Shown here: one piece after another, positions 160 to 21,449 of the stretch
How positions within the stretch are numbered: the first letter of the stretch is position 1
Layout of the letters: each line of letters begins with the position of its first letter
Assembly: GCA_000316135.1 (NCBI GenBank)
Contig: JH994025.1
Coordinates: 26,655 to 48,770, forward strand
Length of the DNA stretch: 22,116 nucleotides
Source: Trachipleistophora hominis
Taxonomy: Eukaryota > Microsporidia > Pleistophoridae
Reading direction: 5' to 3'
Translations under genes and position numbers: made by a program
The notes under the pieces: model-generated
The model's database searches: none
The model's input: the letters and a program-made list of their open reading frames with translations, nothing else
Told to the model about the DNA's origin: nothing

Positions 160-177
160 GTTCAGAAACGTATATTT
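160..177. repeat. Left direct repeat (target-site duplication) of copy 4
   Basis: GTTCAGAAACGTATATTT matches 285-302 at 17 of 18 positions. It sits directly at the A-rich-tail end of the element. Confidence 0.75.
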
Positions 178-284
178 TTTTTTATTTGAAAGTTATTTTA
201 ATTAAATCTTCTTACCACCACACACTTTAAAAGACTCACTGGCGCGTTAGCGCCTACCATGGTCTTGTTGGCCTTTGGTTCACG
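178..284 (-). mobile_element. SINE-like element, copy 4, full length, minus orientation
   Basis: Read on the minus strand, this 107-bp body starts with GAACCAAAGG, holds a GC-rich hairpin (GGCGC/GCGCC, 241-254) and ends with AATTAAAATAACTTTC and an A-rich tail. The 5' part aligns with copy 5 (shared ACCAAAGG, CCA and GCGC blocks) and the 3' part with all other copies. It is bounded by an 18-bp direct repeat with one mismatch (160-177 and 285-302), read here as a target-site duplication. No coding capacity and no terminal inverted repeat are seen. Retroposition is inferred from the tail and the duplication. Confidence 0.72.
241..254. repeat. GC-rich hairpin inside copy 4
   Basis: GGCGC-GTTA-GCGCC is a perfect 5-bp stem with a 4-base loop, conspicuous in otherwise AT-rich DNA. 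The matching place in copy 5 carries the 12-bp palindrome TTAGCGCGCTAA (13886-13897), so a GC-rich structured core appears to be a family trait. Confidence 0.7.
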
Positions 285-302
285 GTTCAGAAGCGTATAT
301 TT
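285..302. repeat. Right direct repeat (target-site duplication) of copy 4
   Basis: GTTCAGAAGCGTATATTT is the partner of 160-177 and marks the 5' end of the minus-oriented element. Confidence 0.75.
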
Positions 303-887
303 CTTCAATTACATAAAGGGATATTATTCACATTCCTTCTTGTTTATTTATATTTAAACCTACATTAACGTTTTGTACAACGTATAATTTATCTCAGTGA
401 TTATCATGTGAATGGCTGTTAAGCTATCCTTCTGCATCAAATGCATATGTACCAGGTTGGATTTTCATTTTTATACTACTGCTGGTGAATATCAACACTA
501 GGATCATCGCATTTTATCTATCAATATTTGTAACAAACAAAATCTTTTCATCAGTGATCAGACAACTTCTTTTATTAATACGATCAGATATACCTAATCG
601 ATAAGAATAGGATTATCATGTAATACCATGTGTTAAATCGTGGAAATTATGGTGTATTATAAAACATTTATACACTAGAACACTAAAAATTGGACAAATC
701 CGGTGGACACAACGTAATTCGTTTGAATTTGAGAAGCATTGGGTCAAATCACTTATAACAGAATGAATGGTCGACCAAATATTTTAGTTAAGTAATAACA
801 AATTAATATTTACTTAGATAAATCAATCAAAATATTCATAATTTTGTTTATTTTTCTAGAACACACGTTTTGTTTCATATTTTGCCA

Positions 888-901
888 AAAAAGTATATAA
901 G
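888..901 (+). promoter_or_regulatory. TATA-like promoter motif
   Basis: AAAAAGTATATAAG lies with its TATATAA core 31 bases before the ATG at 925. The identical 14-mer recurs at 4556-4569, and a variant (AAAAGTATTTAAAG) lies at a similar distance before the gene at 21084. Promoter function is inferred from sequence and spacing. Confidence 0.45.
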
Positions 902-924
902 CAAATGAGAAAGGTAAACATAAA

Positions 925-1038
925 ATGTTGATTTACGCAATTACTCTATTCATAGCAACTATTGTATTCGTTAACTGTGTAATAAATTGTAATAATGGTC
1001 GGGATTGGGAACACGCTCCCAGAGAACCTTCTTTTTAA
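925..1038 (+). CDS. Possible small secreted peptide (37 aa)
   Basis: A 37-codon ORF encodes MLIYAITLFIATIVFVNC followed by a short polar tail ending in HAPREPSF. The first about 20 residues have the form of a signal peptide or anchor, and there are two cysteines near its end (C18, C22). A TATATAA motif lies 25-31 bases upstream and an AATAAA at 1124-1129 lies downstream, so it has the parts of a minimal gene. There is no CCC motif before the ATG. At this length chance cannot be excluded and no family is recognised. If real, it would be a very small secreted or membrane-anchored peptide. Confidence 0.33.
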   Translation: MLIYAITLFIATIVFVNCVINCNNGRDWEHAPREPSF

Positions 1039-1361
1039 GCGGGATATCGGTTGGGTCGTGCATTTTTTACTGGATTATAGACTGTTGTGACTGGCCAATG
1101 CATCGACCCTACAAGTAAAGTTCAATAAAGTTAGTTAGTAGAGATGAGTAGTTAGTAAGATAATTTTTTTCTTTACATTTTTAATTAACTTTCAAGTAGT
1201 TTTATCCAGTATACAGGAGATATGCACCATATTTATAACGTATTCTTGGTGTATCTATTAATATGACGATTGCAATGGCCCGTAGTTCCCTTAGAAAAGA
1301 GTTTTTAAGGAATGTGAGATATGAATTTAGTATTAGAAAAACGTAGGAATGAAAAAACACC

Positions 1362-1552
1362 AAAAGGAAGACTAGGATGCTAACTTAGACTAACTATGAT
1401 AACCTCAACACACGCTAAAAGGAACACTAGGATGATAACTTTAACACACGCTAAAGGGATACTAGGATGCTAACTTAGACTAACTATGATAACCTCAACA
1501 CACGCTAAAAGGGATACTAGGATGATAATTCAGAGTAACTATGATAACTTTA
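1362..1552 (+). repeat. Higher-order tandem repeat, 90-bp period (55 + 35)
   Basis: ACTAGGATG occurs at 1371, 1426, 1461 and 1516, giving alternating spacings of 55, 35 and 55 bases. The long unit contains CTAACTTAGACTAACTATG and ATAACCTCAACACACGCTAA. The short unit lacks the middle part and reads GATAACTTTAACACACGCTAA. The pair was therefore probably duplicated as a 90-bp block. The final unit is diverged (CAGAGTAACTATGATAACTT). Units are too few and too uneven for a CRISPR array. Confidence 0.85.
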
Positions 1553-1738
1553 ATGCAGATGCACCCAAGACGAATATACCACGGCTTTCAACCTGCTTAA
1601 TATTGGATTTCTTCTCTAGGTTAGTAATTTATTGTACTCTCCTTACATAAACAAATTTATACGTTCTATCGATTAAATAGCAGACGGACTATCGGACCTT
1701 ATAGTATTTTATGTAGATATGAATTGATAAAGAACATT

Positions 1739-1751
1739 AACTATGGCATCC
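1739..1751. repeat. Left target-site duplication of copy 1
   Basis: AACTATGGCATCC is identical to 1800-1812. Confidence 0.8.
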
Positions 1752-1799
1752 TTTAGATTATATGTTGTGTGATGATAATTAAACTGACTTTTACTAAAA
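1752..1799 (+). mobile_element. SINE-like element, copy 1, 5'-truncated
   Basis: This 48-bp body reads TTAGATTATATGTTGTG, then TGATAATTAAACTGACTTTT and an A-rich end. It matches the last part of copy 2 (5888-5935) at roughly 90% by eye. A perfect 13-bp direct repeat, AACTATGGCATCC, flanks it at 1739-1751 and 1800-1812. The shortness is explained by 5' truncation, which is typical of target-primed retroposition. Confidence 0.78.
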
Positions 1800-1812
1800 A
1801 ACTATGGCATCC
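1800..1812. repeat. Right target-site duplication of copy 1
   Basis: AACTATGGCATCC follows directly after the A-rich tail and is identical to 1739-1751. Confidence 0.8.
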
Positions 1813-2596
1813 ACTTATATTCAAATGACATTAAACCGAGTGTTACTCTCTTAAAACTTTAACAGTAATTCCTTTCTAACGATGCCATTAAGTCGTAATA
1901 CTTTATTGTTAGACTAAGAACGATCGCATGTGCTATTATCAACGAATTATAAGTATACCATGATGAAACTTTTTCTAATGTTTTATGATTGATCGATATA
2001 TACAGCGTTTGTTTCATATATGATACCGTTAAAACTTAAAATTTAATTCGTTGCACTAATATGTAGTAAAATAATGTAAATAATTGGTATAAAATCTAAT
2101 ATTAAACATTGTTAATTTTTAGTAGAATAATCTGAGCTGCGCCTTATAAATTATTTTACTCGTCTAAAATATCAATGGTGGACGTTATCTAGCCGAATGT
2201 ATTTTTACTTAATGTTCGATGCATGTAATTTCACAGTATTTACCACAGCCTAGTAATGACAACTTGCCGAGGAGAATAGAAAATATGTAACGAAATATGA
2301 ATGACGCGATGAATAAATGTGTTTAATGAATAAATTGCCACATAAGAATAATCTATACACAGTTTATAATTTTAAATAAATTTTTTGTTTGAGAAAACAA
2401 TTATTTGAACCTATTGAAATTTAATACATCTTCAGATATTTATACATCAGATAAGCCGGTAATTTTGAAAAAAATTTTTAACAATTAAAAAGTAAAAGTT
2501 GCTCTTTACAACTATAACAGAAAAAATGCATTCTTTTTAATCAATATAAGACCTTTCACAATCCATCCGTGACATTTAAACTATCACGTCCACAAA

Positions 2597-2604
2597 TTTA
2601 TTTA
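2597..2604 (-). terminator. Stop codon fused to polyadenylation signal
   Basis: On the minus strand the transporter ends TAAATAAA, so the AATAAA hexamer (2602-2597) begins inside the stop codon. This implies a very short 3' UTR. Confidence 0.55.
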
Positions 2605-3849
2605 GTTTTGGTGCTTGAGCAGCTTAAAAAGTGATAGTGCAAAAACACAGCTCCCGAATACAAATCCTATGCAACCAAATATTATTAACCATCTCTTTCT
2701 CTCCAATCCCATGTTATAATAGAATAACAACGGGAATATTAGGCATATCATAGTGGATGCAGTTGCTCCTACAAAGGCGTACATCTCACCCAGATTAAGA
2801 CCCGTAATGGTCAATACATACGTACTGGCGAGCAATAATGTAGTGATTACCGCATGGACTAGGTTATTGTTTCTCTTTTTCGTATTGAATCCTAACAAAT
2901 TGTACATGTATACGCGTGCAGGATTTATCTGAAGAGGATATGAAAATCCCATTACGCAAACGTACAAAAAGTGCAAGAATAGTGTGATGTGGTCATTTGG
3001 ATAGCTCTTTAGAACGTTATCGTGCATGTTCGTGGCATATAATGCGTAATTTGTAAAACCAAACACCATGTAAATGACCAGGCTTGTGGCTGTGGTGGCA
3101 TACACAATTTTTTTCATTCGATCTGGCGAGTTATCAACAACTTCGTTCTGAACCGATATCAAGTTTTGATGGCATGTAAACGCGAACACAAAGGTTCCCA
3201 AGCCTTTTAACCATTCAATAGTTATCGGTTCGTATAAGGTCACGTGTTCTAGAGAGCCATGTTTGATGAAATTGTACATCGAGAAAAACAGAATGAAGGA
3301 AATAGCTATCAGGCCAATTGATGATGTATATTTTAGATTCTTGAGCTGTCTAAAATACGTAATTGGCGAGATAAAGCATAGAAATATTAGTAGAGCCACT
3401 TTTGGCCTTGCGAGCACAGACTCACCAAACACCGTTTGAATCAAATTCGGAATCAGTTCCCGAATAATAATGAGATACGAGGTAGACACGCCAAAGCACT
3501 TAAAAAATACGAAAAAATCAACCAGGAACCGTGTTCGTGGCACACTTTCTCTTGCCAATGATGTTATATTCGTCGAGCGGTCATTCAAAAACGCGTTGCA
3601 GTATAGGAAAATGATCTGTCCCACCATGGACAGAGTAGCCGATAAGCACATTAGAAAGAACGTGCTGATAGCACCATACGACTTAAAAAGCATGGGTATG
3701 TAGAGTATACCACTTCCTATGATTGTCTTTAGAATATTTACGTAGCCAGAGAGGTATTCCTTCATGAGAAATGGTATTCGTGTTGTGAAACAATGCTTAT
3801 AAATAATAATACCAATCTGTTTCAGAATGAATCTAATGAATGTAAACAT
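2602..3849 (-). CDS. Vacuolar-type amino-acid transporter (AAAP/SLC38 family, Avt5/6/7-like)
   Basis: The 415-residue product is an integral membrane protein with about eleven hydrophobic segments (roughly 32-56, 61-85, 107-130, 149-163, 174-194, 212-236, 248-270, 288-308, 330-350, 353-377, 386-408). The first segment carries the family signature KTIIGSGILYIPMLFKSYG. The sixth has FVFAFTCHQNLISVQNE, close to the CHQN...NE signature of fungal Avt5/6/7 and animal SLC38 carriers. Family members move neutral or acidic amino acids across vacuolar or plasma membranes, coupled to protons or sodium. The substrate cannot be read from sequence. The frame stays open upstream to 3885 only through a TTG. 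The first ATG is at 3849, and the ATG at 3765 (before KEYLSGY) is an alternative that would remove an unconserved N-terminus of 28 residues. The stop overlaps an AATAAA signal. Confidence 0.9.
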   Translation of the reverse strand: MFTFIRFILKQIGIIIYKHCFTTRIPFLMKEYLSGYVNILKTIIGSGILYIPMLFKSYGAISTFFLMCLSATLSMVGQIIFLYCNAFLNDRSTNITSLARESVPRTRFLVDFFVFFKCFGVSTSYLIIIRELIPNLIQTVFGESVLARPKVALLIFLCFISPITYFRQLKNLKYTSSIGLIAISFILFFSMYNFIKHGSLEHVTLYEPITIEWLKGLGTFVFAFTCHQNLISVQNEVVDNSPDRMKKIVYATTATSLVIYMVFGFTNYALYATNMHDNVLKSYPNDHITLFLHFLYVCVMGFSYPLQINPARVYMYNLLGFNTKKRNNNLVHAVITTLLLASTYVLTITGLNLGEMYAFVGATASTMICLIFPLLFYYNMGLERKRWLIIFGCIGFVFGSCVFALSLFKLLKHQN

Positions 3850-4122
3850 GAGTTTGTTGATAGAATGTTGTGATACATGCACCAATAGGCATATTTATCT
3901 AATAAGTACCTTTTCGTTCAACGTGTTATTTGATAGTGGTTGGTTTATAAAGGCAGAGCTTGTTGTTTGGCAGAATTAATTAAAATACGATTTGTTGTGT
4001 TGAATTTGTATCTACATTTTGAAACATCGCACATATTGATGAAAGATAAAAGTGTTTACAGAATATTGAAATATAATCGTGCGTTAAGCGTTTTCATTCC
4101 GGCTCAACACAACTAGAATGCT

Positions 4123-4338
4123 ATGAAAATTAAATCCATGAGAATAAAGTGTAGGAAATTCATGATTGGTGAATATACCATAGAAAAAACAAATACTTAC
4201 CATATTGTGGTTATTTTCAAGGAAAACATTTTTATATATGTTTCAATTTATCCTGATGATATGTACAAGGCTACAGGGAACCTTCGAGGTCACAACGGCA
4301 AACTTGTTAGGTCAAGAGGAACCGTGTATATTAAATAA
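4123..4338 (+). CDS. Small basic beta-rich protein, possibly a degenerate Sm-like (SmF-type) protein
   Basis: This 71-residue ORF is rich in lysine, arginine and beta-branched residues. Its end, LRGHNGKLVRSRGTVYIK, resembles the Sm2 motif of SmF (pattern LxGHxG..hhxR...hxYIR). The preceding IFIYVSIYPDDMYK could stand for the Sm1 strand ending in D..MN. The canonical glycine and asparagine of Sm1 are missing and the spacer between the motifs is short, so this is either a divergent Sm protein or chance. SmF is a ring subunit of spliceosomal snRNPs. No CCC motif precedes the ATG. The stop is contained in AATAAA (4334-4339), which favours a real transcript. A strand switch separates it from both neighbours. 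Confidence 0.45.
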   Translation: MKIKSMRIKCRKFMIGEYTIEKTNTYHIVVIFKENIFIYVSIYPDDMYKATGNLRGHNGKLVRSRGTVYIK

Positions 4339-4339
4339 A
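4334..4339 (+). terminator. Stop codon inside AATAAA
   Basis: AATAAA contains the TAA stop (4336-4338) of the 71-residue ORF. It is one of four such overlaps in the window. Confidence 0.5.
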
Positions 4340-4555
4340 CTTACTTTTCCGTAGAAAATATGTTTCAGTTCCGCATCTAGAATTGTTTATTTTGATCTTT
4401 ATTTCTCTGAAGTAACAAAATAATAATAGATTGCATGTTACTATGAATTTATTCGTTTATTTATTCATTCATATCATACTAAATTTGAGATAAAGCACAG
4501 CTCAGGTATATTTTTGGGCCTAGCCACATTAATAAACGTATTTTATTGCTATTGT

Positions 4556-4569
4556 AAAAAGTATATAAG
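4556..4569 (+). promoter_or_regulatory. TATA-like motif, identical to 888-901
   Basis: AAAAAGTATATAAG is repeated exactly. No substantial ORF follows (the nearest ATG gives 9 codons), but the hairpin at 4577-4616 does. It could drive a short non-coding RNA or be a coincidence in AT-rich DNA. Confidence 0.3.
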
Positions 4570-4576
4570 AAATATG

Positions 4577-4616
4577 AACAGGTTGTTTACAATAATGTAC
4601 TAATAAAAAACCTGTT
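4577..4616 (+). ncRNA. Possible structured RNA or hairpin downstream of a TATA motif
   Basis: AACAGGTT (4577-4584) is the exact reverse complement of AACCTGTT (4609-4616), with a 24-base loop. It starts 7 bases after the TATATAAG motif. No known RNA family is recognised, so this is a low-confidence candidate based only on the pairing and the upstream motif. Confidence 0.2.
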
Positions 4617-5209
4617 AAGGTACTAAAAATAATTTTATAGTTGCAAAATATATTCTTACTATAAATCAGCACTGGCTACTCAATTATATGCAAAAATATT
4701 CTGAGGATCAGAGCAAATCATAGAGTTGTAAAGTGTGACTCAATCGACTGCGTAACATATGTTTTAACAGATATTCTTCCGATCTATAATGAATATTATT
4801 AATGAAACACTTTTATAGATATGATACCTCATATGTTGTTTATACGATGAGATTCCTCGTAATATATCGTTGTTAGCTGTTAATGGTGTATATTCTGCTT
4901 TAACCGTAATATATTTTTTGCCTCGTATTTTAATGACATTTTACCATAGATACACTTTTTATATTCCTCTGTCGAACGTAGTTATTAAAACATCACCCCT
5001 TCATATCAACAATAGATAAATCTCTTTCCAATAAATGTAGTAATTAACCCATAATTAATTATTTTGTTAAAAAAATCCTTTCACACTAATACTTAGTAAA
5101 TCACTTTCCAAAAACAATTTTATTCTTTCATACGTTCAAAAACTGCAATAATTAGTAACAGAAAAACTAAATTTTTAATCAACATGCAATTATGCCATAG
5201 CTGGTTGAA

Positions 5210-5758
5210 TCATTCGTATTTAAGATTTTCTGCATGCACTGGTTTCTTTACAGGTACCATATATCGTTTATCCCCGTCTCGTTCGAGCGATATCCTCATA
5301 TCGTACGCATCCTCCTCAGGACTGGTATAATACCCTAAAACTCGTCGATACTTTATATAACCGTTCTTTTCGTAGAATGCGATTGCTTTAAAATTGCTGC
5401 ACCGCACAAAGAGATCAACAAAATACGCGTTTCTTTCATTTCCCAGCGCCTCAAGAATGCGCATCAAAGACGTAGCCAGCCCACATTTTCGATGTGTTGG
5501 TGCAATGCTTAGAGATGATACGTGCATGGATAGCACGCCCCTTCTTTCTTGTTTACCAATGATGTAGCCTACAATCTTGGAGGTATATAAAAAACAAGTT
5601 GAAGAAAGATCTTCTGTCTTTACAATGTACATGTTGTCCGAAAAGTTAAGATGATAGTATAGGTAGTAGCTCAAAGAATAGTTATCGGTTGTAGAATCCA
5701 AATTGACGAGGTCGAGTGAAAAGATATCCTCGGGCAGAAATGGTACAGTCTTATACAT
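5210..5758 (-). CDS. NAA20: NatB catalytic subunit, N-alpha-acetyltransferase Naa20/Nat3
   Basis: The product is 182 residues, close to the about 178-195 usual for Naa20. It transfers acetyl from acetyl-CoA to the initiator methionine of nascent chains starting Met-Asp, Met-Glu, Met-Asn or Met-Gln, acting at the ribosome with the auxiliary subunit Naa25. Diagnostic features in order are the N-terminal NLDSTTDNYSLSYYLYY (19-35), VGYIIGK (63-69), the acetyl-CoA loop R90-KCGLA, the strand VDLFVRCSN (114-122), FYEKNGY, then GYYTSPEEDAYDMR (142-155) and the C-terminal VPVKKPVHAE typical of Naa20 rather than Naa10 or Naa50. The ATG at 5758 is preceded by CCC at -3 to -5. It ends with TGA. Confidence 0.96.
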   Translation of the reverse strand: MYKTVPFLPEDIFSLDLVNLDSTTDNYSLSYYLYYHLNFSDNMYIVKTEDLSSTCFLYTSKIVGYIIGKQERRGVLSMHVSSLSIAPTHRKCGLATSLMRILEALGNERNAYFVDLFVRCSNFKAIAFYEKNGYIKYRRVLGYYTSPEEDAYDMRISLERDGDKRYMVPVKKPVHAENLKYE

Positions 5759-5760
5759 GA

Positions 5761-5763
5761 GGG
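5761..5763 (-). promoter_or_regulatory. CCC motif before the NAA20 start
   Basis: On the minus strand CAACCCTC runs into the ATG, placing CCC at -3 to -5. The same placement occurs at 14434 and 19461. Microsporidian genes are known to carry such CCC motifs just before the start codon. Confidence 0.55.
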
Positions 5764-5817
5764 TTGATAATTCAAAATTTGCTGAGAATTAAAACCATTT
5801 AATTCAGGAATAAAAAT

Positions 5818-5827
5818 ATAGATTGGT
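5818..5827. repeat. Left target-site duplication of copy 2
   Basis: ATAGATTGGT is identical to 5938-5947. The next bases CTATGA and ATACGA keep four of six matches. Confidence 0.75.
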
Positions 5828-5937
5828 CTATGAATTGAAAGCTGGTGGTCATGGTCAATCCCAGCGGTTCAAAAACGTGGGTTTGATTAGATGATATGTT
5901 GTGAGGTGATAATTAAACTGACTTTTTAAAAAAAAGG
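5828..5937 (+). mobile_element. SINE-like element, copy 2, full length
   Basis: The 110-bp body starts CTATGAATTGAAAGCTGG and contains GGTCATGGTC. Next come CCCAGCGGTTCAAAAACGTGGG-type pairing (CCCAgCG with CGTGGG) and ATATGTTGTGAGG. It ends with TGATAATTAAACTGACTTTT and an A-rich tail. A perfect 10-bp direct repeat ATAGATTGGT (5818-5827, 5938-5947) flanks it and extends to 16 bp with two mismatches. GGTTCAAAAAC at 5866 weakly resembles a pol III B box, but a matching A box is not clear. It is about the same length as copies 4 and 5. Confidence 0.78.
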
Positions 5938-5947
5938 ATAGATTGGT
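5938..5947. repeat. Right target-site duplication of copy 2
   Basis: ATAGATTGGT lies two bases after the A-rich tail. Confidence 0.75.
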
Positions 5948-7583
5948 ATACGATACGAGTGAAAAAATGAGCTTATATTAAAATTTGCAGTAAAAAAAAC
6001 TTGGAGAATTAGTTAAATTATATGTCAATTATTACGCGTATTTTTAAACGTATGAAGAGGAAAACGATTCTTTGACTATTAGTTGCTTAAAAACAGGGAG
6101 TAGGCCAACATTTTAAAGAATAGAACCAAGGAAAAAAATTTATTTTTAAGCATCGGATCGAGTTTGGAATCTGTTTTATAGAAGCTTAATCCTATACTTT
6201 ATTATAATAACTTTAAACGTAGTACAATACAACATCCTACTTTATTCCATACTCTATTGCACTATAATATCATATATCAATAAATCTTCTCTTTTTTATT
6301 CAGATACATTGAAAAATATGCCATGTTACATTAGTAGCATCAGTAAATTGCGTATGAAATGTTCATAAAATACCATCCATAAATTTTAATAGAATACCCT
6401 GCTAATATTTAAATATTTGGAGTAACGCCGTCATTGAAGGTTTTTAAACGATTAGATTGTTGGCAATTACGATGCCTTTGTTTTAGAAACCATAAAGAGT
6501 TTACGGTAGTACAATTAACTATACACATAAGAGTTGTTTGTGTTATTTCATATGTTTTTGTTTTATAATGAAGTTGTTGGCTATTATTTAATCGTTTCCT
6601 TATGATTCTTAAAAGCTAATTGATAATTTTTAATCAATGGATAGAATCGTTACAATTTGTATAAATAAACATACATATATTATGGTAAGAACGTATATTT
6701 AACACGTAAGAGAAAAAGTATAAAGTTTAGATATGTGTGTATACGTATGATAGGTAATGTAAATAACTTAATATGTTTGAAAACTGTGACAAGTTCGATA
6801 GTAAAGGAATATGAATTGTATTTCCTATTTACAAATGTTTCTAACTGAAAACAAGCTTTTCGAAAGAGAATAAAATGATATTATATTATAGTAGAACGAA
6901 ATCTCGCTTAAATGACCCTATTTCAGAAAATATTATAGTTAGTTTTATATGATACTGCATTGTGCACAAGAAAGTATTGGAACTTTGTCCTAGATTGTAA
7001 GATGAAAACAGCTAGTTATGTCATGTTTCAAACAAATATCAAAAATATAGTAACTTATTCGTGAATATAGTTGATATAGTAACAAATAATAAACCATAGC
7101 AGAAAGAGAGGCTTTTTTATAATAGAAGTTATTTTTTCATATTATTTTATACCAAGTTTAAATAACAGAGAATAAACACTTTTTTAGTTTCTATGTAAGT
7201 AATTACATGTTATTTAGTTATATGTTAATGGTAAGATGATTGTATCTGTTGAAAAGCGATTCTTCTATACAAAAGACAATAAATTTCTTTTTACAAGTAT
7301 TACATACCGTGTTATTTTAACTTTTTATAATAAAAACTGAAAGGAATGTATCTAATAGTTATTAAACAAGATCTTCTCTGACCAACACAAATTTCTAACA
7401 TAATTAATTTATAATTTTGTACAAAAATGAATGATTTAACAATTTATATCAAGCATATTTTTCACTAACAAACATATTTATAAGTACTTGTAGCTTTTTA
7501 ACGATTAAATATATATTTTACTGAATTTTACGGTCTTGAGAAATCTGCAAAATAAGAGTAACCAATACGCTACTTCCTACGTA

Positions 7584-7591
7584 TTTATTTA
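7584..7591 (-). terminator. Stop codon fused to polyadenylation signal
   Basis: On the minus strand the 104-residue gene ends TAAATAAA, so AATAAA starts on the last base of the stop codon. Confidence 0.5.
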
Positions 7592-7903
7592 GAAAAATAT
7601 AAGTGGACTGAAAGGCTCAGTCACTCTTGAATATGCTTCCAATAAACTCTCATTCAATTCGTTTGCAGTAAAAGATCTATTTCTACAACATTTTTTCGAA
7701 CATATCTTTCGTTTTCCCGAGAAGTACAAGTATAAACCAATTAATATCACGAAGCTGAGAACAATTAATATTATAGTAATATCAATCCAACTATGGCTGG
7801 ATGTGTTAATAGTCTGAACTGGTATCTCATTTATGTTTGAAGGCTGTACATAACTCTGCTCTTCCTGCTGTTCAACTGTTACTATAGTTTCTACTCTTGT
7901 CAT
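7589..7903 (-). CDS. Small single-pass membrane protein (104 aa), unknown
   Basis: No family is recognised. A polar, glutamine- and threonine-rich N-terminus (1-40) is followed by one hydrophobic helix (about 41-61, DITIILIVLSFVILIGLYLY). Next is a basic, cysteine-rich stretch GKRKICSKKCCRNR (63-76) and a short tail ending in FSPLIFF. There is no cleavable signal peptide. The positive-inside rule puts the C-terminal tail in the cytosol. The juxtamembrane cysteines C68, C72 and C73 are plausible palmitoylation sites. Layout and strand match the next upstream gene (9346-9930), which also has its single helix at about 42-62 after an SWI motif, so the two may be distant tandem relatives. The stop overlaps AATAAA. 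Confidence 0.7.
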   Translation of the reverse strand: MTRVETIVTVEQQEEQSYVQPSNINEIPVQTINTSSHSWIDITIILIVLSFVILIGLYLYFSGKRKICSKKCCRNRSFTANELNESLLEAYSRVTEPFSPLIFF

Positions 7904-9345
7904 TTTTTATTTTTTACAACTTTAATTTTATTAAAATAAACGAATTTGCCTTTTTGGTAGTGTACCAAAAAAAGCCGCTGAATTATTTGTAACCAGAAGT
8001 AAAACGAGTAGATATTATAAAAATGCATTCTGTGATATCTAACATGTTTAACTAATTAAAATGATATGATTCCTTGATAGATCACTTATAAACTTTTATG
8101 GAATGTCTCACGTTGTCTGTGAAACAAAAACTATTTCAAATACAGCGCGTATACGTAATTAGATGAAATATAAAATAAATATAGAAGTAGTGTTTTCTAC
8201 ATAAAAAGTTTTAAAGCAAATGATCACTTATTATAAAAAGTAAATTAACTATCAATTCATTTATCTATACATATTATGAGTTTCAGTTACATAATAGTAC
8301 AATACTATTTTGAATCTTATTTCATTATGAACAGTATAGTCTTGTACATCTTAGTTACTGAGCTGCCGTTAATGTCAAACTTCTTCTTTTGTTTTTTGCT
8401 TCGGCAAAAATATTCTATGGAAGTTTATCGGTTTACTTTGAGTAAAATCTAATTAGGAATATAACTTGAATAAGTTTTCTTTATCTTTCTACATCATGTA
8501 GGTTAACAAACACAACAATTATGTTTATCGAATTATGAAAAATTTTACACTTTTTTAAACAAGTGTTTAAATGCCACTTTACACAACAATAGTATTCCTT
8601 TAATACGCTGGAATTGATGATAGTCATCTATTTTTGGTTTGTGTAATATTTATTTCAATATAATTATTTTTATTTAGAAAAGAAAATGTAGATACATTAT
8701 TTACATAGTACGTTTTTTCCCATCGTTATTGATGAGCTTTATTTTAAATAGTTTTTGTTTTTTTTCGTATTTAAAATATGGAATAAGAAGTTATTTGTGG
8801 TTAAATATTAGTTGTTTATATGTTGCTATTAGCATATAGCTAAAAACGATCCAAAGGATGAATATATGAGCATTTTAAATATTTTTTTGTTTATAAAAAG
8901 AAACATCTTTTATTGTTTTGTGAAATTAAATAATTTATTATTTTCAACTAATCGACCATCTTTAGATTGCTTCTCCGTATTAAATCGCTCGGAGAGTCCC
9001 GAGAAATTTTGTGCCCTATTTTAACATAAAAGATCATCATTTGAGGATAACAATGCTTTGACCTTTTATTATTATGATTTTTACAACATTTTTAGTAGAA
9101 TCAAAACAGACTTTATAAAATATTACTCGGTTGGATTACTTGTGTTTCCAACCGCTGATATTTAGGAATTGTTTTTTACATTTATTCGAAAAATATAAAG
9201 ATTTATTGTCAGAGTTTAAATTTTTTACGTTCAATTTGGATGTCCCATTCTTATGATTAACATTTCGTTATGAATTACATTAAATAAAATATCCTATATA
9301 CGTATCACTATTAACACCAAAAAACATTTAAAAAAGATATTTTTA
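7904..9345. other. 1.4-kb AT-rich intergenic region
   Basis: No supported gene is seen. A 41-codon ORF at 8327-8452 has no promoter motif or homology and is not called. A small hairpin CTCGG/CCGAG (8988-9003) lies in a short GC-richer patch around 8970-9015. Confidence 0.55.
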
Positions 9346-9348
9346 TTA
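9342..9348 (-). terminator. Stop codon overlapping polyadenylation signal
   Basis: On the minus strand the PPSY protein ends TAATAAAA, with AATAAA at 9347-9342 beginning inside the stop. Confidence 0.5.
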
Positions 9349-9930
9349 TTTAACGTTCCTTTCCGCAAGATTCATGGTCAATTCTGTACTTAATGGAAGT
9401 TGGCATAGCTTCTTCTTACGTTGGCAACCTGTCATCATTTCTTTAATATCATTGCGATTTAATAATTGATAAAGTGGCAACTCGGCATTTTTTAGCTTTG
9501 ATTTGGCACTTAGCATAACACTTTCGTAAGATGGTGGTAGGTTTTTACATAGGGAACCTGCAGAACATTGATAAGAGGTTATAGCTGTCTGCCCCGGAAC
9601 AGCAAGTGCTTGGATAGTAGCAGAAGTTTGTCCCTTTTCAGACATACAATTGGATCCATGGTTAATAGTAACCACCGACTGTTGTTGATTGTTCTGAGTT
9701 CTACAATTATTATATAACGTGTTTCTACGCCTGTGAAAGCGTACACATGTAATTATCGTAAGTATTGCAAATATAAATATATAAAAACTAAAAAATAGAA
9801 GAGTTATTCGTGTTTCAATGGAAGGAATCCATGACGCTTCTTTAAAGGTTGTGTTTTCATGTAATAACGTGCCAATTGGTCTCGAAATATTTGTATATTC
9901 CACTTTTGTTGAGTTCCATGCATCAGCCAT
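9346..9930 (-). CDS. Single-pass membrane protein with a PPxY motif, candidate ubiquitin-ligase adaptor
   Basis: The product is 194 residues. The N-terminus (1-40) has three N-glycosylation sequons (N6, N14, N26). One helix spans about 42-62, followed by a strongly basic stop RFHRRR (64-69), so the N-terminus is predicted outside and the about 130-residue tail cytosolic. The tail carries LPPSYESVM (131-139), a textbook PPxY ligand for WW domains. In fungi, membrane proteins of this shape (Bsd2, Tre1, Ear1, Ssh4 class) recruit the Nedd4-type ligase Rsp5 to transporters. That role is inferred from the motif only, and no domain homology is recognised. A second candidate motif, LPLYQLL (151-157), lacks the second proline. 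The ATG is preceded by CCAAACC and by TATATAAG 43-50 bases upstream. Confidence 0.78.
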   Translation of the reverse strand: MADAWNSTKVEYTNISRPIGTLLHENTTFKEASWIPSIETRITLLFFSFYIFIFAILTIITCVRFHRRRNTLYNNCRTQNNQQQSVVTINHGSNCMSEKGQTSATIQALAVPGQTAITSYQCSAGSLCKNLPPSYESVMLSAKSKLKNAELPLYQLLNRNDIKEMMTGCQRKKKLCQLPLSTELTMNLAERNVK

Positions 9931-9972
9931 GGTTTGGAACTATTTCGTCATAATAAAGATGTATCAATAATA

Positions 9973-9980
9973 CTTATATA
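9973..9980 (-). promoter_or_regulatory. TATA-like motif upstream of the PPSY-protein gene
   Basis: TATATAAG on the minus strand begins 50 bases upstream of the ATG. It shares its core with the motifs at 888 and 4556. Confidence 0.35.
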
Positions 9981-10054
9981 GATTATGAATCGAACAAAGT
10001 GCAATATAACTGCTAAGGAATAAATTATATTAATGTCGGAAAAATCCGTGCTGT

Positions 10055-10067
10055 ATAGTAGCATATA
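10055..10067. repeat. Left target-site duplication of copy 3
   Basis: ATAGTAGCATATA matches 10114-10126 at 12 of 13 positions. Confidence 0.72.
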
Positions 10068-10113
10068 TTGGCACCTGTATGAAGGAGATAATTAAACAGA
10101 CTTTTTTAAAAAC
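10068..10113 (+). mobile_element. SINE-like element, copy 3, 5'-truncated
   Basis: The 46-bp body ends GAGATAATTAAACAGACTTTT plus A-rich tail, one base different from copies 1 and 2 in the core block. It is flanked by a 13-bp direct repeat with one mismatch: ATAGTAGCATATA at 10055-10067 and ATAGCAGCATATA at 10114-10126. The 5' truncation point is similar to that of copy 1. Confidence 0.74.
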
Positions 10114-10126
10114 ATAGCAGCATATA
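10114..10126. repeat. Right target-site duplication of copy 3
   Basis: ATAGCAGCATATA lies directly after the A-rich tail and one C. Confidence 0.72.
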
Positions 10127-11067
10127 AGCTAAGAAAATTAGCAAATATTCATGTAAAATCATAATATCTTTTAGAAAGCGTTATAGTAACGCTTTTAAAT
10201 TTGTGCATTATCTCAATATTTATGTTTTAAATTTAAATAACTAGGATATGCTTTTAATTGCCCGTTTCATCTGTATTATCGTATATTTACGAATTCATCT
10301 TTTGGTTACTGAATGCTTCAAACTTAATTGAAATCTTTCTACGTAGAGCAGCTCAATTGTTAAAAATTGGTTTCGTAGTTTCAATAGGTGAACTGGACGA
10401 AATAAAATAAAATACGATCATAACATCGAGATTCATCATCTATGGCAACAAAGTACGATTAAATAAAGCATATAAAGAAATGAACAGCTATTTATTGAAA
10501 GTCAATTTGATTCACAGTGGTTATTATATAATAGCTGTTGTATTTATGTAGATTTTAACTATATTCAACATTTTTTTCGCGTAAAATAAAAATTACTTTT
10601 TTCCTTTTGAAGAAACTTTTTTAATTAATATTCCAATATTCCCAAAACATTTATTCAATATGCCTAAAAATTAACAATTACTTGATATCATTGATCCAAA
10701 ACATCCATAGAAGCATAACAATGCAAATCTGATTTTTCTAAAACCAGAATTTTCAAAGGACATAGTGAAAATTAATTATACCTAATGAAAATAGTCTCTA
10801 CAGACTGTGTTAAACTATTATAGGATAAATTTTGAAATACTTCTTGTTTCGAACTGGAAGAAGTTTGCTTCAATTAAAATATTAACATAAATACCGAATA
10901 TTTAATCTATTTCATAGTATTTAATTATAATTCAAAATATTTAGCCAAAAATTCATCAAAGTGTTATTGTTTAGTATAATTGTAATGGTATTTTTTATCA
11001 TGAATAGCTGTAACAGCTTCTGAATCACATATACATATTAATATTTTTAACTTTCATAAACTTTTAA

Positions 11068-12006
11068 TTATAGAAAGAAACAAATCTCCGGCTTTTTATC
11101 GCAGTATTTCTTGGTTTCTGCACAATAAACAACATATCCACATGTTTTCAAGTATTTTTCAGAGTAAATGTGTCTTGTTTCGTACACCAAAGGCCTGTTA
11201 CTTTCATTTATTTCTTCATTACTCCCCTTGCATCTTAGGAAGGTATTCGTGCGTCTTGAATATGGCAACTTGGCCGCCAAGCTTTGTATCCATGGTAAAC
11301 AAGTTGGACAATCATCAACTCGTCTTTTGTTTAGACAGTCGATGCTATTGAGCGCTATTATACCCGCCACTATTCGATTTGTCAGCCGTGTCTGTGATGG
11401 TAATCCTTTGATATGGCACAATATTCTCTTATATTCATTAACCAAATTGTTAAGATGCTCATTTATCTTACTCATATGCAAATTATAGTCCCGCACTAGG
11501 AGAAACAGCCATTCTCTCATAATATCCACGGATATTTGCTTGGCTCTAACGAATTGTATAGCTTCACTATATTCCTTGTTACAACAATGTATGATGAAGA
11601 TTCTGACCTTTAAGTTTTCCATCAAATCACTTTTCAATTCTTTGAGGAGCACTTTATTGGCCTCGCAAAAGATTTGCAGTTCTTCTAAATCGTTTTTCCT
11701 GATATTTTCTTCTTTCTGTTTCAATTTTTCGAAATACGGTATTCGTTGCTCATAAATATAAATATCGTTCTGTTCAAGATATTCTTGAATGGCATAGTCC
11801 AAATTATCAATTGGTTTTAAACCATCATTCTGTTCGAGCGCAGCAAATTTCTTTTTCAGACTCTCTTTTAGCAGCAATAGTTTTTCTTTAAGCTGTTCTT
11901 TGCTAACCTTTCCTTTGAAGTGCATATCCATAAGCTTTTTGATAAGACGTGCGGTATTTCGTGTGAAAAGAAGCAATTCTGCCTCGTTTATGAAACTCTC
12001 TGTCAT
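11068..12006 (-). CDS. GID9: GID/CTLH ubiquitin-ligase subunit Gid9 (MAEA/Fyv10)
   Basis: The 312-residue product starts with a helical, lysine-rich region (1-60). A CTLH domain follows (about 105-163), containing LEELQIFCEANKVLLKELKS and EAIQFVRAK, then a CRA-type helical region. The C-terminal RING-like domain (about 232-312) has DDCPTC (231-236), LPYSRRTNTFLRCK (247-260), the IYSEKYLK segment and a final YCAETKKYC...CFFL that parallels the VCPxTxxxF ending of MAEA/Fyv10. In yeast, Gid9 pairs with Gid2 to form the RING core that ubiquitinates gluconeogenic enzymes for degradation. It is shorter than the yeast (about 516) and human (about 396) proteins, mainly at the N-terminus, where no clear LisH motif is seen. 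The LPNG turn typical of the RING-like domain is replaced by YETRH, so its ring is diverged. No CCC motif or AATAAA overlap is present. Confidence 0.9.
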   Translation of the reverse strand: MTESFINEAELLLFTRNTARLIKKLMDMHFKGKVSKEQLKEKLLLLKESLKKKFAALEQNDGLKPIDNLDYAIQEYLEQNDIYIYEQRIPYFEKLKQKEENIRKNDLEELQIFCEANKVLLKELKSDLMENLKVRIFIIHCCNKEYSEAIQFVRAKQISVDIMREWLFLLVRDYNLHMSKINEHLNNLVNEYKRILCHIKGLPSQTRLTNRIVAGIIALNSIDCLNKRRVDDCPTCLPWIQSLAAKLPYSRRTNTFLRCKGSNEEINESNRPLVYETRHIYSEKYLKTCGYVVYCAETKKYCDKKPEICFFL

Positions 12007-12139
12007 ATTTGTTTATTTTTAAATTTTAAATATATGTTATCATGATATTTTATCAGATTTCAAACAAAAACATAAAACGCTAATAAATGAATGATAGCAC
12101 GAGTTCTAGTTTTTAACAGAGTAGATTTATTGATTCTCC

Positions 12140-12409
12140 TCACCAGGTTTTACACATCGGTCCCGATGAACTAAAAAATATAGAGCAAAATACATGGATG
12201 ATAAATGCATACTTAACATGAGAAGAGTTAAAAAAAACATTTAAATCTATGAACCGCACACCTCTTGCCATGGCAAATCTCAGCTCATCAGAAGAGTGTG
12301 TGAGGTGATGAGATGAATAAAAAAAATACATTTCAATTAAAAAATATACAGTTAATACACAACTGATATATTTATATTGTTTAAACATGAAAAACTTCTT
12401 TATACACAT
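12140..12409 (-). CDS. Doubtful small hydrophobic protein (89 aa)
   Basis: This ORF begins about 400 bases upstream of GID9 on the same strand and ends 133 bases before it. It encodes a hydrophobic N-terminal segment (YISCVLTVYFLIEMYFFY, about 14-31) and a polar, histidine-serine-rich centre with SSDELRFAMARGVRFIDL. A second hydrophobic stretch, YAFIIHVFCSIFF, follows near the end. The centre is less AT-rich than its surroundings and the same bases can fold (CTCATCA/TGATGAG, 12284-12312). No family, CCC motif or polyadenylation overlap supports it. It could be a real two-pass membrane protein or a chance ORF over a structured segment. Confidence 0.35.
   Translation of the reverse strand: MCIKKFFMFKQYKYISCVLTVYFLIEMYFFYSSHHLTHSSDELRFAMARGVRFIDLNVFFNSSHVKYAFIIHVFCSIFFSSSGPMCKTW
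12284..12312. repeat. Inverted repeat in a GC-richer patch
   Basis: CTCATCA (12284-12290) pairs with TGATGAG (12306-12312) around a 15-base loop. The neighbouring CACACCTCTT and AAGAGTGTG can pair imperfectly. It lies inside the doubtful 89-residue ORF. Confidence 0.4.
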
Positions 12410-13809
12410 TTATCTCGCCTTTCAAGTCATCATTTCTCGCTTTTTCTCAATTTTTCACAGGTTTTGCATTTTTCCGTACGATTTTTTTATTTCAAACGTT
12501 TTATTTATCATTCCATACTCTATAATACACATTCGTTTTCTCTACTAGGATGAATTGTGGTTACTGATACTTGAGTTATTTATTTGATACGGGTCACATA
12601 ATTTTCTTCTTAAAAATGGTCTTTCAGTTTATAAATTATTTTTTACTTATATTTATTACCATAAATTATTCTCCATGTTAAATAGATAATTTAAACAATT
12701 AGAAATGATTTTATACGTCTATCAGTAGTATAAAATAGAGATTAGTAAAATTTTCATGAACTTTGTGTGAAAGATATATCATCAGAACGAACAATTAAAC
12801 GTTACGGTGGCCTAGATAGGATCGAACGAATTTAATGAACACTTGTTAATAACATTTTTATCGCAGATTTAGTTAACAGATGACCTATAAACCTCTATAT
12901 CAATGATAATCTTGATAAATTTTCCGTGTAAAATTACGCGCCACATGTAGTGTATCTAAATAAGAAGAAACTTTTTCATAACTATCTAAAATTTCTTATT
13001 GAGTTTAAAATTATTTATTTGATAGTGCCTTATCTTGAGCGTGTGGTTTAGCAAAAACGTCAATGCTTGCCAGTTGTCAGTTTCCTGATTTACAATATAA
13101 CCAGCTATTTATTGAAAGCTGTTCATGAACATCATTATACTATTACATCATAAGTATGGCATTTTACATATCCATGATTATTGTAGCATTAAAAACTTCG
13201 ACTATTACACTTTGTGATTCTAGTGTGGATATGTCTATTTGTTTCCATAATTATCATCCTAGTTGAATATAAAGATGTTTCATAGTCATCAAAATCTATA
13301 GTTATCTCAGTATCAATAAAAAGAGAATTCCCAGGCTGGTTCGTCAGTTCAAGAAAAATCAAACAATTTTTTCCTGTTTACTGCAAAAAATCAAAAATTA
13401 TATGTTATTATGAAATTTTTATGTTTGTAAACACGCACAGCAGTCATTTGTGATCTATCTTAAGATAAATCGTCAATCCCGATTAGAAATTAATTTGCTG
13501 ATCTCTACAAAAAACAAAAATATAGGCGCAATGGTTAACCTAAAACGAATTTAGGAACAAAAAAAGAATATGTCCTATCAAATGCATGCAAATTTGAATT
13601 TTTGTTTCATAAACAGAATAGCGCATCGAGTTATATATAAAAATGTCTATGTTACTTTAATTTAAAAAATCTTAATTCATTTTTTAAATTAGTGGTATTT
13701 ATTACGTAATTGATAAGTTCCAACTCATAAAATAACAGTTGTTTATCTTATATACTTGTGTAATATTTGCATTCTTTTGGTTAAATCACGCTGTTAAATT
13801 CAATAATTC

Positions 13810-13817
13810 GTTTAAAA
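13810..13817. repeat. Left direct repeat of copy 5
   Basis: GTTTAAAA is identical to 13933-13940. It is short and AT-rich, so weaker than the duplications of the other copies. Confidence 0.5.
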
Positions 13818-13823
13818 CGTGGA

Positions 13824-13932
13824 TTTTTTATATGAAAGTCCATTTAATTAACTCTTCAGATAATCGCACATTTTAACAGATTCTATTAGCGCGCTAAGCG
13901 CATACAGTGGCCTACACAACCTTTGGTTTATG
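13824..13932 (-). mobile_element. SINE-like element, copy 5, full length, minus orientation
   Basis: Read on the minus strand, this 109-bp body begins CATAAACCAAAGG and has GGCCACTGTATGCGC with the palindrome TTAGCGCGCTAA. It ends GTTAATTAAATGGACTTTC plus an A-rich tail. It aligns along its whole length with copy 4. The flanking perfect direct repeat is 8 bp, GTTTAAAA (13810-13817 and 13933-13940). Six bases (13818-13823) lie between that repeat and the tail and may belong to a longer, decayed duplication. It is the most diverged copy at its boundaries. Confidence 0.66.
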
Positions 13933-13940
13933 GTTTAAAA
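13933..13940. repeat. Right direct repeat of copy 5
   Basis: GTTTAAAA abuts the 5' end of the minus-oriented element. Confidence 0.5.
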
Positions 13941-14427
13941 ATGAATCATTATTAATCATACTATTCCGAAAACCAAATATAGATTGATGACTTCATTACA
14001 TAAAAATTACGCTATAAAATCGCTTCTAACACCAATATAACCATAGTAATTCCCGGTTTTTAACGTATTACTATATAATTTTACTTCTTATAACTATTTT
14101 GCCATTTATGTGTGTAGAAACTGTTTTAATTGTAGTTCATACTCTTTTGACGTTTTTAACCATGAAATTTCTGTCAACAATAAAAACTTTATAATATTGG
14201 CTAGGAAAAAAATATAAATAGAACAATCCTATGGACACTACTTTTATGATATTTCGAGATGCATACTGCGCACTTTTCCAGGTTAAAACGTAATCTTGTC
14301 AATTTATGGTTTAATTATTAATTTTTGTACCTTTTCAACACGATTGTACACTTTCTTGCTGACAAAAAATATTTACAAGCATAGTCTCGTGTTTGTTGTT
14401 ATTTGTTCAAATTTTTTAATTTCTGAT

Positions 14428-14431
14428 CCCC
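14428..14431 (+). promoter_or_regulatory. CCCC motif before the start at 14434
   Basis: GATCCCCTT runs directly into ATG, with CCCC at -3 to -6. It supports 14434 as the start over the upstream in-frame TTG at 14296. Confidence 0.55.
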
Positions 14432-14433
14432 TT

Positions 14434-15330
14434 ATGATCTATAAATCGGACCTGGATGATGACGATATATCTGACACCATTAGTCAAAAATATCCGGCCC
14501 TGTGCCAATTTTTAAAATCTCCTGACAATAACCTGCTGCTGGAAATATTAACATATCCTTGCCTGGCAGTTTTAAAGAAACTTATAAAAAGCAAATTTAC
14601 AAAACTTGCAGAGCCAAAAAATCTGCTGCAATTAATCGAAAAGATGTTGCCTTATAATTCCACAACCACTATCCTTCTAATTAATTTGTTACGATACTGT
14701 AATAGTCAACCTTTTGTTAGTGAATGGATTCGCAGGATAAGGACAACATACGATGATCTTCTCCAGCAAACATCTTTTACATTGTTTTATAATTACGTAA
14801 TCGATAATGACACCAAAAACTTTTATTGTGAATATTTTATAAAAATAACACCACAGCTAGAAAGCTATATAGAATTCTTTTTATCTGTAAACAATAATCA
14901 TGAGTTCTACATCAATCTACTTTTTGAGAAGGAAATAACGAACAAAGAAATTGCTCAAAATACGTTAAACTATTTGGTAAATTTAGAAATTAACGATAAC
15001 TTAATTTTGCTTTACAATTCAGTAGTAAAGCGTTACAACCTTGACGAGTACAACATAAACTTAAAAGAAGTTAAAGACATCATAGATGATATCAAGAAAC
15101 TTAACCTAAAAAGATATTTTGCTATTATTGAGAGCGGTAAGCCTTATATAAATAAGGAATTTTACCACATTACTTTACTTCAATCAAGGAAATGGGATGG
15201 TTATTTGCAAATATTATTTTGGAAAATTTTGATATACCAGAGAATAGCCTTTGATTGGACAGTGCCAGATGATAATAATAACAATGACTTTGGGAAGGAC
15301 GCATTGATGGTCCTGGATAATCTTCATTAA
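14434..15330 (+). CDS. Alpha-helical repeat protein, possibly a SAPS-like phosphatase regulator
   Basis: The product is 298 residues, almost entirely predicted helix, rich in Leu, Ile, Asn and Lys. It opens with an acidic stretch, SDLDDDDISD (about 5-14). Successive amphipathic segments follow, including YPALCQFLKSP (about 20-30), LLLEILTYPCLAVLKKLIKS and ILLINLLRYC, and the pattern of an ARM/HEAT-like solenoid continues to the end. The acidic start plus QKYPALCQFLKSP resembles the entry of SAPS domains (Sit4/PP6-associated proteins), which are much longer. This assignment is tentative. The frame is open upstream from 14296, but only a TTG lies there and the added residues are hydrophobic and low in complexity. 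The ATG at 14434 follows CCCC and is preferred. Confidence 0.82.
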   Translation: MIYKSDLDDDDISDTISQKYPALCQFLKSPDNNLLLEILTYPCLAVLKKLIKSKFTKLAEPKNLLQLIEKMLPYNSTTTILLINLLRYCNSQPFVSEWIRRIRTTYDDLLQQTSFTLFYNYVIDNDTKNFYCEYFIKITPQLESYIEFFLSVNNNHEFYINLLFEKEITNKEIAQNTLNYLVNLEINDNLILLYNSVVKRYNLDEYNINLKEVKDIIDDIKKLNLKRYFAIIESGKPYINKEFYHITLLQSRKWDGYLQILFWKILIYQRIAFDWTVPDDNNNNDFGKDALMVLDNLH

Positions 15331-21083: not shown

Positions 21084-21449
21084 ATGGATAGAAAGTTTTA
21101 TCATTGTGCATTCTTCTTAATAGTGCTCATTTTACTATCAAACGTATATAAAATAAGATGTCAATCAACAGTAGAAAAAAAGGATCAGAACGCGGAGAAT
21201 GATGCTGGTGGTGCTTCTCCAATCGCGGAGGAGGTTCAAGGTATATCGCCTGACAGCGAAGAAAAGGATGATGGTGGAATGGGTGGCTTGTTTGGCAAAA
21301 GTAAGGATAAAGATCAGAAGAAAGACAAAGGCTCTAAATCTAAAAATCAGTCTTTCTTCTCAAAGTATAAAACGTACATCATAATTGCTTTGGTTGTCAT
21401 TGTAGTTATAGTTATAGCCGGTGTAGTTTTCGGAATGTTCAAGAAGTAA
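21084..21449 (+). CDS. Type I membrane protein with signal peptide and C-terminal anchor (121 aa)
   Basis: No family is recognised. A clear signal peptide spans about 1-26 (hydrophobic core AFFLIVLILLSNVY, cleavage plausible after Cys26). Next comes a polar ectodomain rich in Glu, Asp, Lys, Gly and Ser (27-95) with GGMGGLFGKSKDKDQKK, and a strong helix YIIIALVVIVVIVIAGVVF (98-116). The tail is only FKK-like. The ectodomain has no cysteine, no fold-like pattern and looks disordered. Such short, charged, membrane-tethered proteins are common among lineage-specific surface or secretory proteins of intracellular parasites, but that role is only inferred. The KK pair at the very end is not in the -3/-4 position of an ER retrieval signal. 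Confidence 0.8.
   Translation: MDRKFYHCAFFLIVLILLSNVYKIRCQSTVEKKDQNAENDAGGASPIAEEVQGISPDSEEKDDGGMGGLFGKSKDKDQKKDKGSKSKNQSFFSKYKTYIIIALVVIVVIVIAGVVFGMFKK

Follow-up and report, generated by a model that had tools for sequence, protein, structure and literature searches.

A stretch of 22,116 nucleotides from the microsporidian Trachipleistophora hominis (bases 26655-48770 of contig C81, in an assembly of 5,508,218 bases and 119 contigs), called the window below, carries copies of a repeat of about 108 bp that are members of one dispersed retroposon family of this organism, whose identity as host is almost certain. The short copies start at one fixed point, end in an A-rich tail and are bounded by target-site duplications, and in the main sub-family, A, the repeat is also the 3′ end of a long interspersed nuclear element (LINE). 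The joint explanation that best accounts for these data, and that we consider very probably correct, is that sub-families A, B, C and D, together with the divergent E, form a single non-autonomous family of retroposons without long terminal repeats (non-LTR), and that a reverse transcriptase (RT) encoded by a LINE copied an RNA of ~108 nt into new sites via target-primed reverse transcription.

Copies of the family in the window

All five copies proposed by an earlier sequence-only reading of the window are present where it had placed them, with slightly adjusted ends. They were scored with a family model built on an alignment that includes three of them. The sub-family B copy lies on the minus strand at 175..285 (model E 1.1e-14), with its start, CCGTGAACC, at 285 and an A tail extending to ~175. 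It is flanked by TTCAGAAACGTATA on its 3′ side (161..174) and TTCAGAAGCGTATA on its 5′ side (286..299), a direct repeat of 14 bp with 1 mismatch, plus A's. Sub-family A is represented on the plus strand by a full-length copy at 5828..5937 (E 1.5e-17), with exact 10-bp duplications at 5818-5827 and 5938-5947, and by two 5′-truncated copies: 1752..1799 (E 1.5e-6, match at 1741), with exact 13-bp duplications at 1739-1751 and 1800-1812, and 10068..10113 (E 3.7e-3, match at 10046), with 13-bp duplications differing by 1 mismatch at 10055-10067 and 10114-10126. A divergent, full-length sub-family C copy occupies 13824..13933 of the minus strand (E 8e-13, match at 13825); its 8-bp duplication, GTTTAAAA (13810-13817 and 13933-13940), is weak. 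Each of the five copies has a direct repeat of its own, as had been read, at the stated length except in the B copy, which has 14 bp rather than 18; the repeat at 10068 includes a mismatch and that at 13824 is weak. The 3′ block that the copies were said to have in common is indeed a shared tail, but only in variant form across sub-families A, B and C, the B copy carrying the variant TTTAATTAAAATAACTTTC. The full-length copies also have a common 5′ head, which reads CCGTGAACCAAAGG in the copy at 178, CCATAAACCAAAGG in the copy starting at 13933 and, in a more diverged version, CTATGAATTGAAAG in the copy at 5828.

A sixth copy, missed by the first reading, is the divergent 'E' at 12247..12327 on the plus strand (model E 4e-5; nhmmer E 4e-7). 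Its duplications (12237-12246 and 12328-12337, 9/10 identical) were read by eye, the automatic test having chosen an A-run. A weak match at 8551..8644 on the minus strand (model E 1e-4) is possibly a very old copy; it has no nhmmer match at E ≤ 0.05 and no convincing duplication. At E ≤ 0.01, nhmmer with the same family alignment returned the 6 window copies and none in reversed sequences, showing that the window copies are not chance matches. Nine matches were obtained at this threshold in 23 tRNA loci (69,259 bases, selected independently of the family) and none after reversal. The density of the family in the window is unexceptional: 22 kb hold 6 copies, and the 69 kb of tRNA loci hold 9.

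Distribution of the family in the genome

The strict 22-base tail GGTGATAATTAAACTNACTTTT occurs with at most 2 mismatches at 113 places in the 5.5-Mb assembly and nowhere in the reversed control. The sub-family B tail, with at most 3 mismatches, was found at 8 places (control 0), corresponding to 6 full-length and 2 truncated copies. DNA searches, which score the ~40 best candidates apiece, gave at least 41 matches with the 5838 copy of the window, at least 42 with locus L050 (127 candidates) and at least 40 with locus L078 (69 candidates); the 178 copy gave 8, and the 13830 copy, of sub-family C, matched itself only. Extrapolation from the 9 matches in tRNA loci yields roughly 700 recognisable copies genome-wide. 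The many further copies with distinct flanks that the sequence-only reading had expected from a whole-assembly search are thus present, and units of ~108 bp that are short, dispersed, non-coding and multi-copy (113 strict tails) share these properties with short interspersed nuclear elements (SINEs).

Target-site duplications and an empty site

For 100 of the 113 tail places, picked by the tail alone, we matched the sequence past the A tail against the 330 bp upstream, counting scores of at least 10. The null consisted of 300 pairs made with the 3′ flank of another copy. A duplication was scored in 43 of the 100 copies, against 12 of the 300 mismatched pairs. Removal of 8 copies (2 tandem, 6 matching more than 90 bp upstream) left 35, in which the median duplication is 12 bp once leading A's are trimmed. 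These 35 insertion sites are A/T-rich near the nick, and we claim no insertion-site motif from them; the lack of A at the first duplication base results from the trimming. Among other sub-family members, found by model or profile, 7 of 15 had duplications scoring at least 8, compared with 11 of 210 in the null. These 7 were left uncounted because at least one is an A-run and some others read into the element.

An empty site was found for L129, where a truncated element of 54 bp with a 20-bp duplication (1 mismatch) lies inside another repeat. The paralogues of this repeat at L060, L014, L041 and L085/L021 (one locus) carry a single copy of the target, and L092 and L013 also cover the insertion point in the match table. 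The comparison with unoccupied sites, which had been envisaged for related strains, could thus be made on paralogous repeats instead. The joined flanks of L133, which has an exact 15-bp duplication, were matched across the insertion point in L037; since L037 is itself a family member, L133 is a nested insertion. These are the 2 spanning matches among 40 joined flanks of the loci examined. The A-rich tail, variable duplications and 5′ truncation from which retroposition had been read are therefore borne out, and target-primed retroposition is well supported as the mechanism. The further supposition, that the family is active in this genome, finds no such support: the full-length A units share 72-95% identity with L050, and the listed RT matches are partial or contain stops.

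The repeat around L129 is a second interspersed repeat, with up to ~200 bp aligned, a TCTAAACATCGATCGTAAATGACTGCTGAGTGAGTC core and 70-77% identity to L129 between loci. It was located at L129:1-301, L060:985-1174, L014:880-989, L041:2713-2913, L085:2930-3093, L092:204-310 and L013:2169-2262.

The short copies have a fixed 5′ end

The duplications mark where a copy begins, independently of homology. In 12 of the 35 retained copies, the 5′ end so marked lies 73-79 bp upstream of the tail, at CCATG (CCATGAACC), and in the remaining 23 it lies 9-62 bp upstream. Such a clustering of 12 ends within 7 bp has a probability of 7.4e-6 against a uniform distribution over 90 bp. Homology-based ends were placed for all 100 copies: 25 at CCATG (including L055, an internally deleted LINE copy), 60 inside the unit, 9 at LINE length and 6 unaligned. 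None of the 100 ends 12-83 bp upstream of CCATG. In sub-family B, 6 of the 8 copies start at the identical base. Because the short copies have one fixed 5′ end, the template that was copied appears to have been a discrete RNA of ~108 nt and not a randomly truncated LINE RNA. A truncation peak just 3′ of the second hairpin described below is seen in the homology-based ends; the 23 truncated copies whose ends are set by duplications do not clearly show it, and it is not claimed here.

Sub-family A forms the 3′ end of a LINE

The entire sub-family A unit, head included, is also the terminal 108 bases of a LINE family that is degenerate and whose adjoining region is found at 35 places in the assembly. 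The suggestion that the tail might be shared with a LINE thus holds for sub-family A; no LINE carrying a B, C, D or E unit was seen. Nine PF00078 matches were obtained, in five non-LTR loci (C111, C107, C12, C21 and C45) and two others (C108 and C16). At four of the five non-LTR loci (L083, L086, L087 and L088), a LINE 3′ region of ~160 bp lies downstream of the RT and is directly followed by an A unit. One RT piece is closest to R2 in the PDB (3.7e-11), then to LINE-1 (2.6e-8), and the locus on C21 is 100% identical, over 80/80 residues, to a protein named T. hominis non-LTR RT.

The relationship between short and LINE-linked copies was examined in a tree built from 57 A units of full length (108 columns), of which 18 are LINE-linked (two labelled by hand) and 39 short, 4 identical units having been removed. 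The labels change 10 times in this tree, with at least 3 changes forced by supported branches, and 38 of the 54 inner branches are unresolved. Shuffled labels change 15.4 times on average, and none of 500 shuffles was as low as 10. Short and LINE-linked units are therefore mixed yet somewhat clustered. In some pairs a short copy groups with a particular LINE copy (L164 with L156, L075 with L007), and other short copies form short-only pairs. The tree is compatible with a repeated birth of short copies from the LINE, without proving it.

Other arrangements were observed at these loci. At L007, L008 and L059, tandem A units end LINE copies, the second unit being complete or truncated. The RT fragments of L082 (C108) and L085 (C16) are unlike the LINE, L082 has a weak integrase match (E 0.024), and both loci are probably of the long terminal repeat (LTR) type. 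L083 (C111) and L086 (C107), which are probable segmental duplicates, contain an open reading frame (ORF) of 810 aa with a near-identical start, next to LINE remnants of one kind. The L083 ORF has no Pfam match above the cut-off; as a guess, it may be a member of the leucine-rich family that is reported to be expanded in T. hominis.

The elements have no detectable tRNA-type promoter

Internal promoters of RNA polymerase III (pol III) were searched with A- and B-box matrices from 23 tRNAs of the same genome, using simple letter shuffles as control. The tRNAs scored 24-34 bits, the 57 A units had a median of -0.2 and 6 B copies ranged from -9 to -2; a single A unit of the 57 exceeded the 95th percentile of shuffled units. 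No tRNA-type boxes were thus detectable in the 57 A units or the 6 B copies, and other types of pol III promoter are possible. Rfam gave no relevant match to tRNA, 5S or signal recognition particle (SRP) RNA in the window and the element stretches scanned. A match at L169:1501-1609 plus flanks (C89 near 85700) is likely the SRP RNA gene of this microsporidian; it covers positions 117-232 of RF00017 only, at 45 bits, below the gathering score. Three of the four heads compared with this candidate aligned no better than shuffles, and that of sub-family B was marginal (11.5, against a 95th percentile of 10.5). Moreover, 3 of the 6 B copies contain TTTT in their middle. Neither the promoter matrices, nor Rfam, nor the SRP RNA candidate gave a convincing relation to tRNA, 5S or 7SL RNA. 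The label SINE in its strict sense is thus unsupported, because no tRNA-type A and B boxes were detected and because the whole A unit, not just its tail, is found in the LINE. A match resembling a C/D-box small nucleolar RNA (sR1, E 7e-5, below the gathering score) was noted at L075:24-84 (C51 near 61400).

A two-hairpin head

The units of sub-families A, B, C and D have CCRTRAACCAARGG in common, in variant form, together with two hairpins; those of sub-family E share only CTATGAACC and parts of the hairpins with the other heads. The first hairpin is ACCA-AA-GGCC..GGCC-A-TGGT. The second is GGTCC-CAGC-GGACC in A and GGCGC-TAGC-GCGCC in B, and D uses G-U and other pairs. In an alignment of 26 sequences, 16 cells were changed on both sides of a pair, compared with 6.6 after shuffling, and in 12 representatives of the five sub-families 12 cells, compared with 5.9 (0/500 shuffles as high in either case); kinship inflates these cell counts, and in neither alignment are doubly changed pairs more numerous than in shuffles. 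Six single sequences were not clearly stabler than shuffles (z -1.5 to 0.2), and RNAalifold alone proposed a different, weak structure. Since folding energy gives no support, the case for the hairpins is made by compensatory changes only. The second hairpin, with changes from U-A to C-G and from C-G to G-C, is the solid part of the head structure.

Ribozymes of the hepatitis delta virus (HDV) type form a nested double pseudoknot with a conserved P2 helix and a catalytic C. Helices resembling P1, P3 and P4 are kept in the right order in the heads. P2 pairs in only 70% of cells, and each of its two central pairs is open in 14 of the 26 rows; an alternative stem, ACCA/TGGT, fits better. By eye, no catalytic C was seen past the second hairpin in A copies, and the elements gave no Rfam ribozyme match.

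Origin and mobilisation of the short RNA

In the explanation that we favour, the template would be a discrete ~108-nt RNA with CCRTGAACC at its start and, in sub-family A, GATAATTAAACTRACTTTTAATAAAAAA at its end. The LINE RT would recognise the common 3′ end of this RNA, producing full-length copies when it reached the RNA 5′ end and truncated ones when it dropped off early. The RNA 5′ end could be set by a promoter of its own or by processing of LINE RNA. Several observations weigh against this scheme. Of the 100 tail-chosen copies, 57 lack a duplication scoring at least 10, reflecting old copies or a strict test. Downstream of its RT, the fifth non-LTR locus, L084 (C45), shows no unit within the stretch examined. 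The 9 LINE-length copies in the sample of 100 show no clear duplication within the 330 bp upstream, and a wider look for exact matches of at least 10 bp was negative for L083 and L088. None of the LINE copies found is full-length or intact, the RT matches being partial or interrupted by stops, and the endonuclease family PF14529 had no match, which is why the mobilising enzyme is one that we infer. Two LINE ends, L005 and L058, adjoin runs of N; fuller copies may therefore be absent from the assembly.

An independent SINE, transcribed from a tRNA-, 5S- or 7SL-derived pol III promoter, with a LINE-derived 3′ end and later gained whole by the LINE, would also be short, with a fixed 5′ end, an A-rich tail and a 3′ end common with the LINE. 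The structured head common to the sub-families would suit it, as would the amplification of B to 8 copies with no B-type LINE in sight. We nevertheless regard this history as unlikely, given A/B-box scores at shuffle level, the Rfam and SRP RNA comparisons and the TTTT in B copies. Plain 5′-truncated LINE copies, in which the last ~108 bp were retained by stopping at a preferred place, would account for the A unit being the LINE 3′ end, for its intermixing with LINE-linked units in the tree and for the abundance of truncated copies. However, such ends should be spread without a preferred point, whereas a third of the duplication-defined ends fall within 7 bp. The CCATG spike also falls 5′ of both hairpins, a position at which structure would not be expected to halt an RT arriving from the 3′ end, and the region 12-83 bp upstream of CCATG is empty of homology-based ends among the 100. 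Sub-family B is equally sharp-ended, and in none of its 8 copies does the sequence continue into a LINE. Truncation of this kind is improbable.

A third possibility, which would supply the step of the favoured explanation that sets the RNA 5′ end, is that the short RNA was excised from LINE RNA exactly at the 5′ border of the two-hairpin head, by self-cleavage or by a host nuclease, so that short copies were born anew in each LINE sub-family. The fixed 5′ end, the hairpins preserved through compensatory changes and the intermixing of the 18 LINE-linked and 39 short units speak for it. On the other side stand the unresolved inner branches of the tree, labels more clustered than shuffled ones, so that some short lineages may have spread alone, the lack of a B-type LINE among those seen, and the poorly formed P2 of an HDV-like fold without an Rfam ribozyme match; excision is put forward tentatively. 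Segmental or tandem duplication of DNA did occur locally, as in the tandem units of L007, L008 and L059 and the L083/L086 pair, but as a substitute for retroposition it has a negligible probability in view of the distinct flanks, individual duplications, A-rich tails and empty site. It is conceivable, at a similar level of confidence to excision, that the last ~108 nt of the LINE act as a self-contained retroposition module, combining a two-hairpin head that sets the RNA 5′ end with a tail recognised by the RT, from which short elements would be repeatedly born by RNA cutting or initiation there, without a tRNA-type pol III promoter.

Other features of the window

The window contains, among others, genes for an amino-acid transporter (87% identical to that of Vavraia culicis), a GNAT acetyltransferase and a DHHC palmitoyltransferase; the microsporidian host, which the sequence-only reading had raised as a possibility, is supported, and the 100% RT match on C21 points to T. 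hominis or a near-identical strain. Five ORFs (7589-7903, 9346-9930, 11068-12006, 14296-15330 and 21084-21449) have no Pfam family above the cut-off, the third and the last falling just below it with CTLH (25.1 vs 26 bits) and ECM10 (22.1 vs 23 bits), respectively. A direct repeat of ~46-76 bp (AAAGGGATACTAGGATGCTAACTTAGACTAACTATGATAACCTCAA) is present in 3 copies with spacings of 90 and 55 at 1363-1553, and lies outside the retroposon family.

Relation to known short retroposons

The T. hominis elements resemble classical LINE-mobilised SINEs, such as those described for hagfish in the passages cited (PMC7245038), in being short and non-autonomous, with an A-rich tail, duplications and a 3′ end shared with a LINE. 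They differ from them in that neither a pol III promoter of the tRNA type nor the head of a known small RNA is detectable, and in the inclusion of the entire A unit in the LINE 3′ end. Trypanosomatids possess several LINE-derived short retroposons, RIME and NARTc among them, with a common 79-bp signature at the LINE 5′ end, whereas the common unit of T. hominis is at the LINE 3′ end. SIDER elements, in the portion of the work cited (PMC2323293), are likewise short, LINE-related and united by a conserved signature. The SINEs of Aspergillus fumigatus are also short fungal retroposons, with duplications of 4-14 bp, but are described there as tRNA-/5S-related (PMC5063351, in part), a relation not found for the T. 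hominis family.

The LINE partner belongs to the non-LTR retrotransposons reported for T. hominis, whose ORFs are frameshifted according to the sections cited, and for which RepeatModeler was used (Heinz et al. 2012, PMC3486916); the short family may sit unnamed in the supplement of that paper. Passages of two further studies report that the expression of a T. hominis RT family is variable and that the isolate shows an allele-frequency peak at 0.5 (Watson et al. 2015, PMC4654818), and that a catalogue of microsporidian LINEs, LTR elements and DNA transposons lists 9 LINE families for T. hominis but none for V. culicis (Parisot et al. 2014, PMC4202319). 'SINE' is absent from the main texts of PMC4202319, PMC3486916, PMC4435813, PMC3749934 and PMC4654818, and from the available text of PMC7313128, PMC10542269, PMC13174016 and PMC12449221; in the text available, PMC6416283 names SINEs merely as a class, not for microsporidia. 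No SINE-like family in microsporidia was found in the literature searched. What is new, with moderate novelty, is thus a microsporidian SINE-like family whose main sub-family lies wholly inside a LINE 3′ end and which has a fixed 5′ end and no recognisable tRNA-type promoter.

Microsporidia are models of genome reduction, and the family, with perhaps hundreds of short insertions, could provide presence/absence markers in a human parasite. It also offers a test case for LINE-dependent short elements arising without a pol III small-RNA gene. If the LINE 3′ end does act as a self-contained module, it would represent a route to SINE-like elements that needs no captured small-RNA gene, in the lineage with the smallest eukaryotic genomes.

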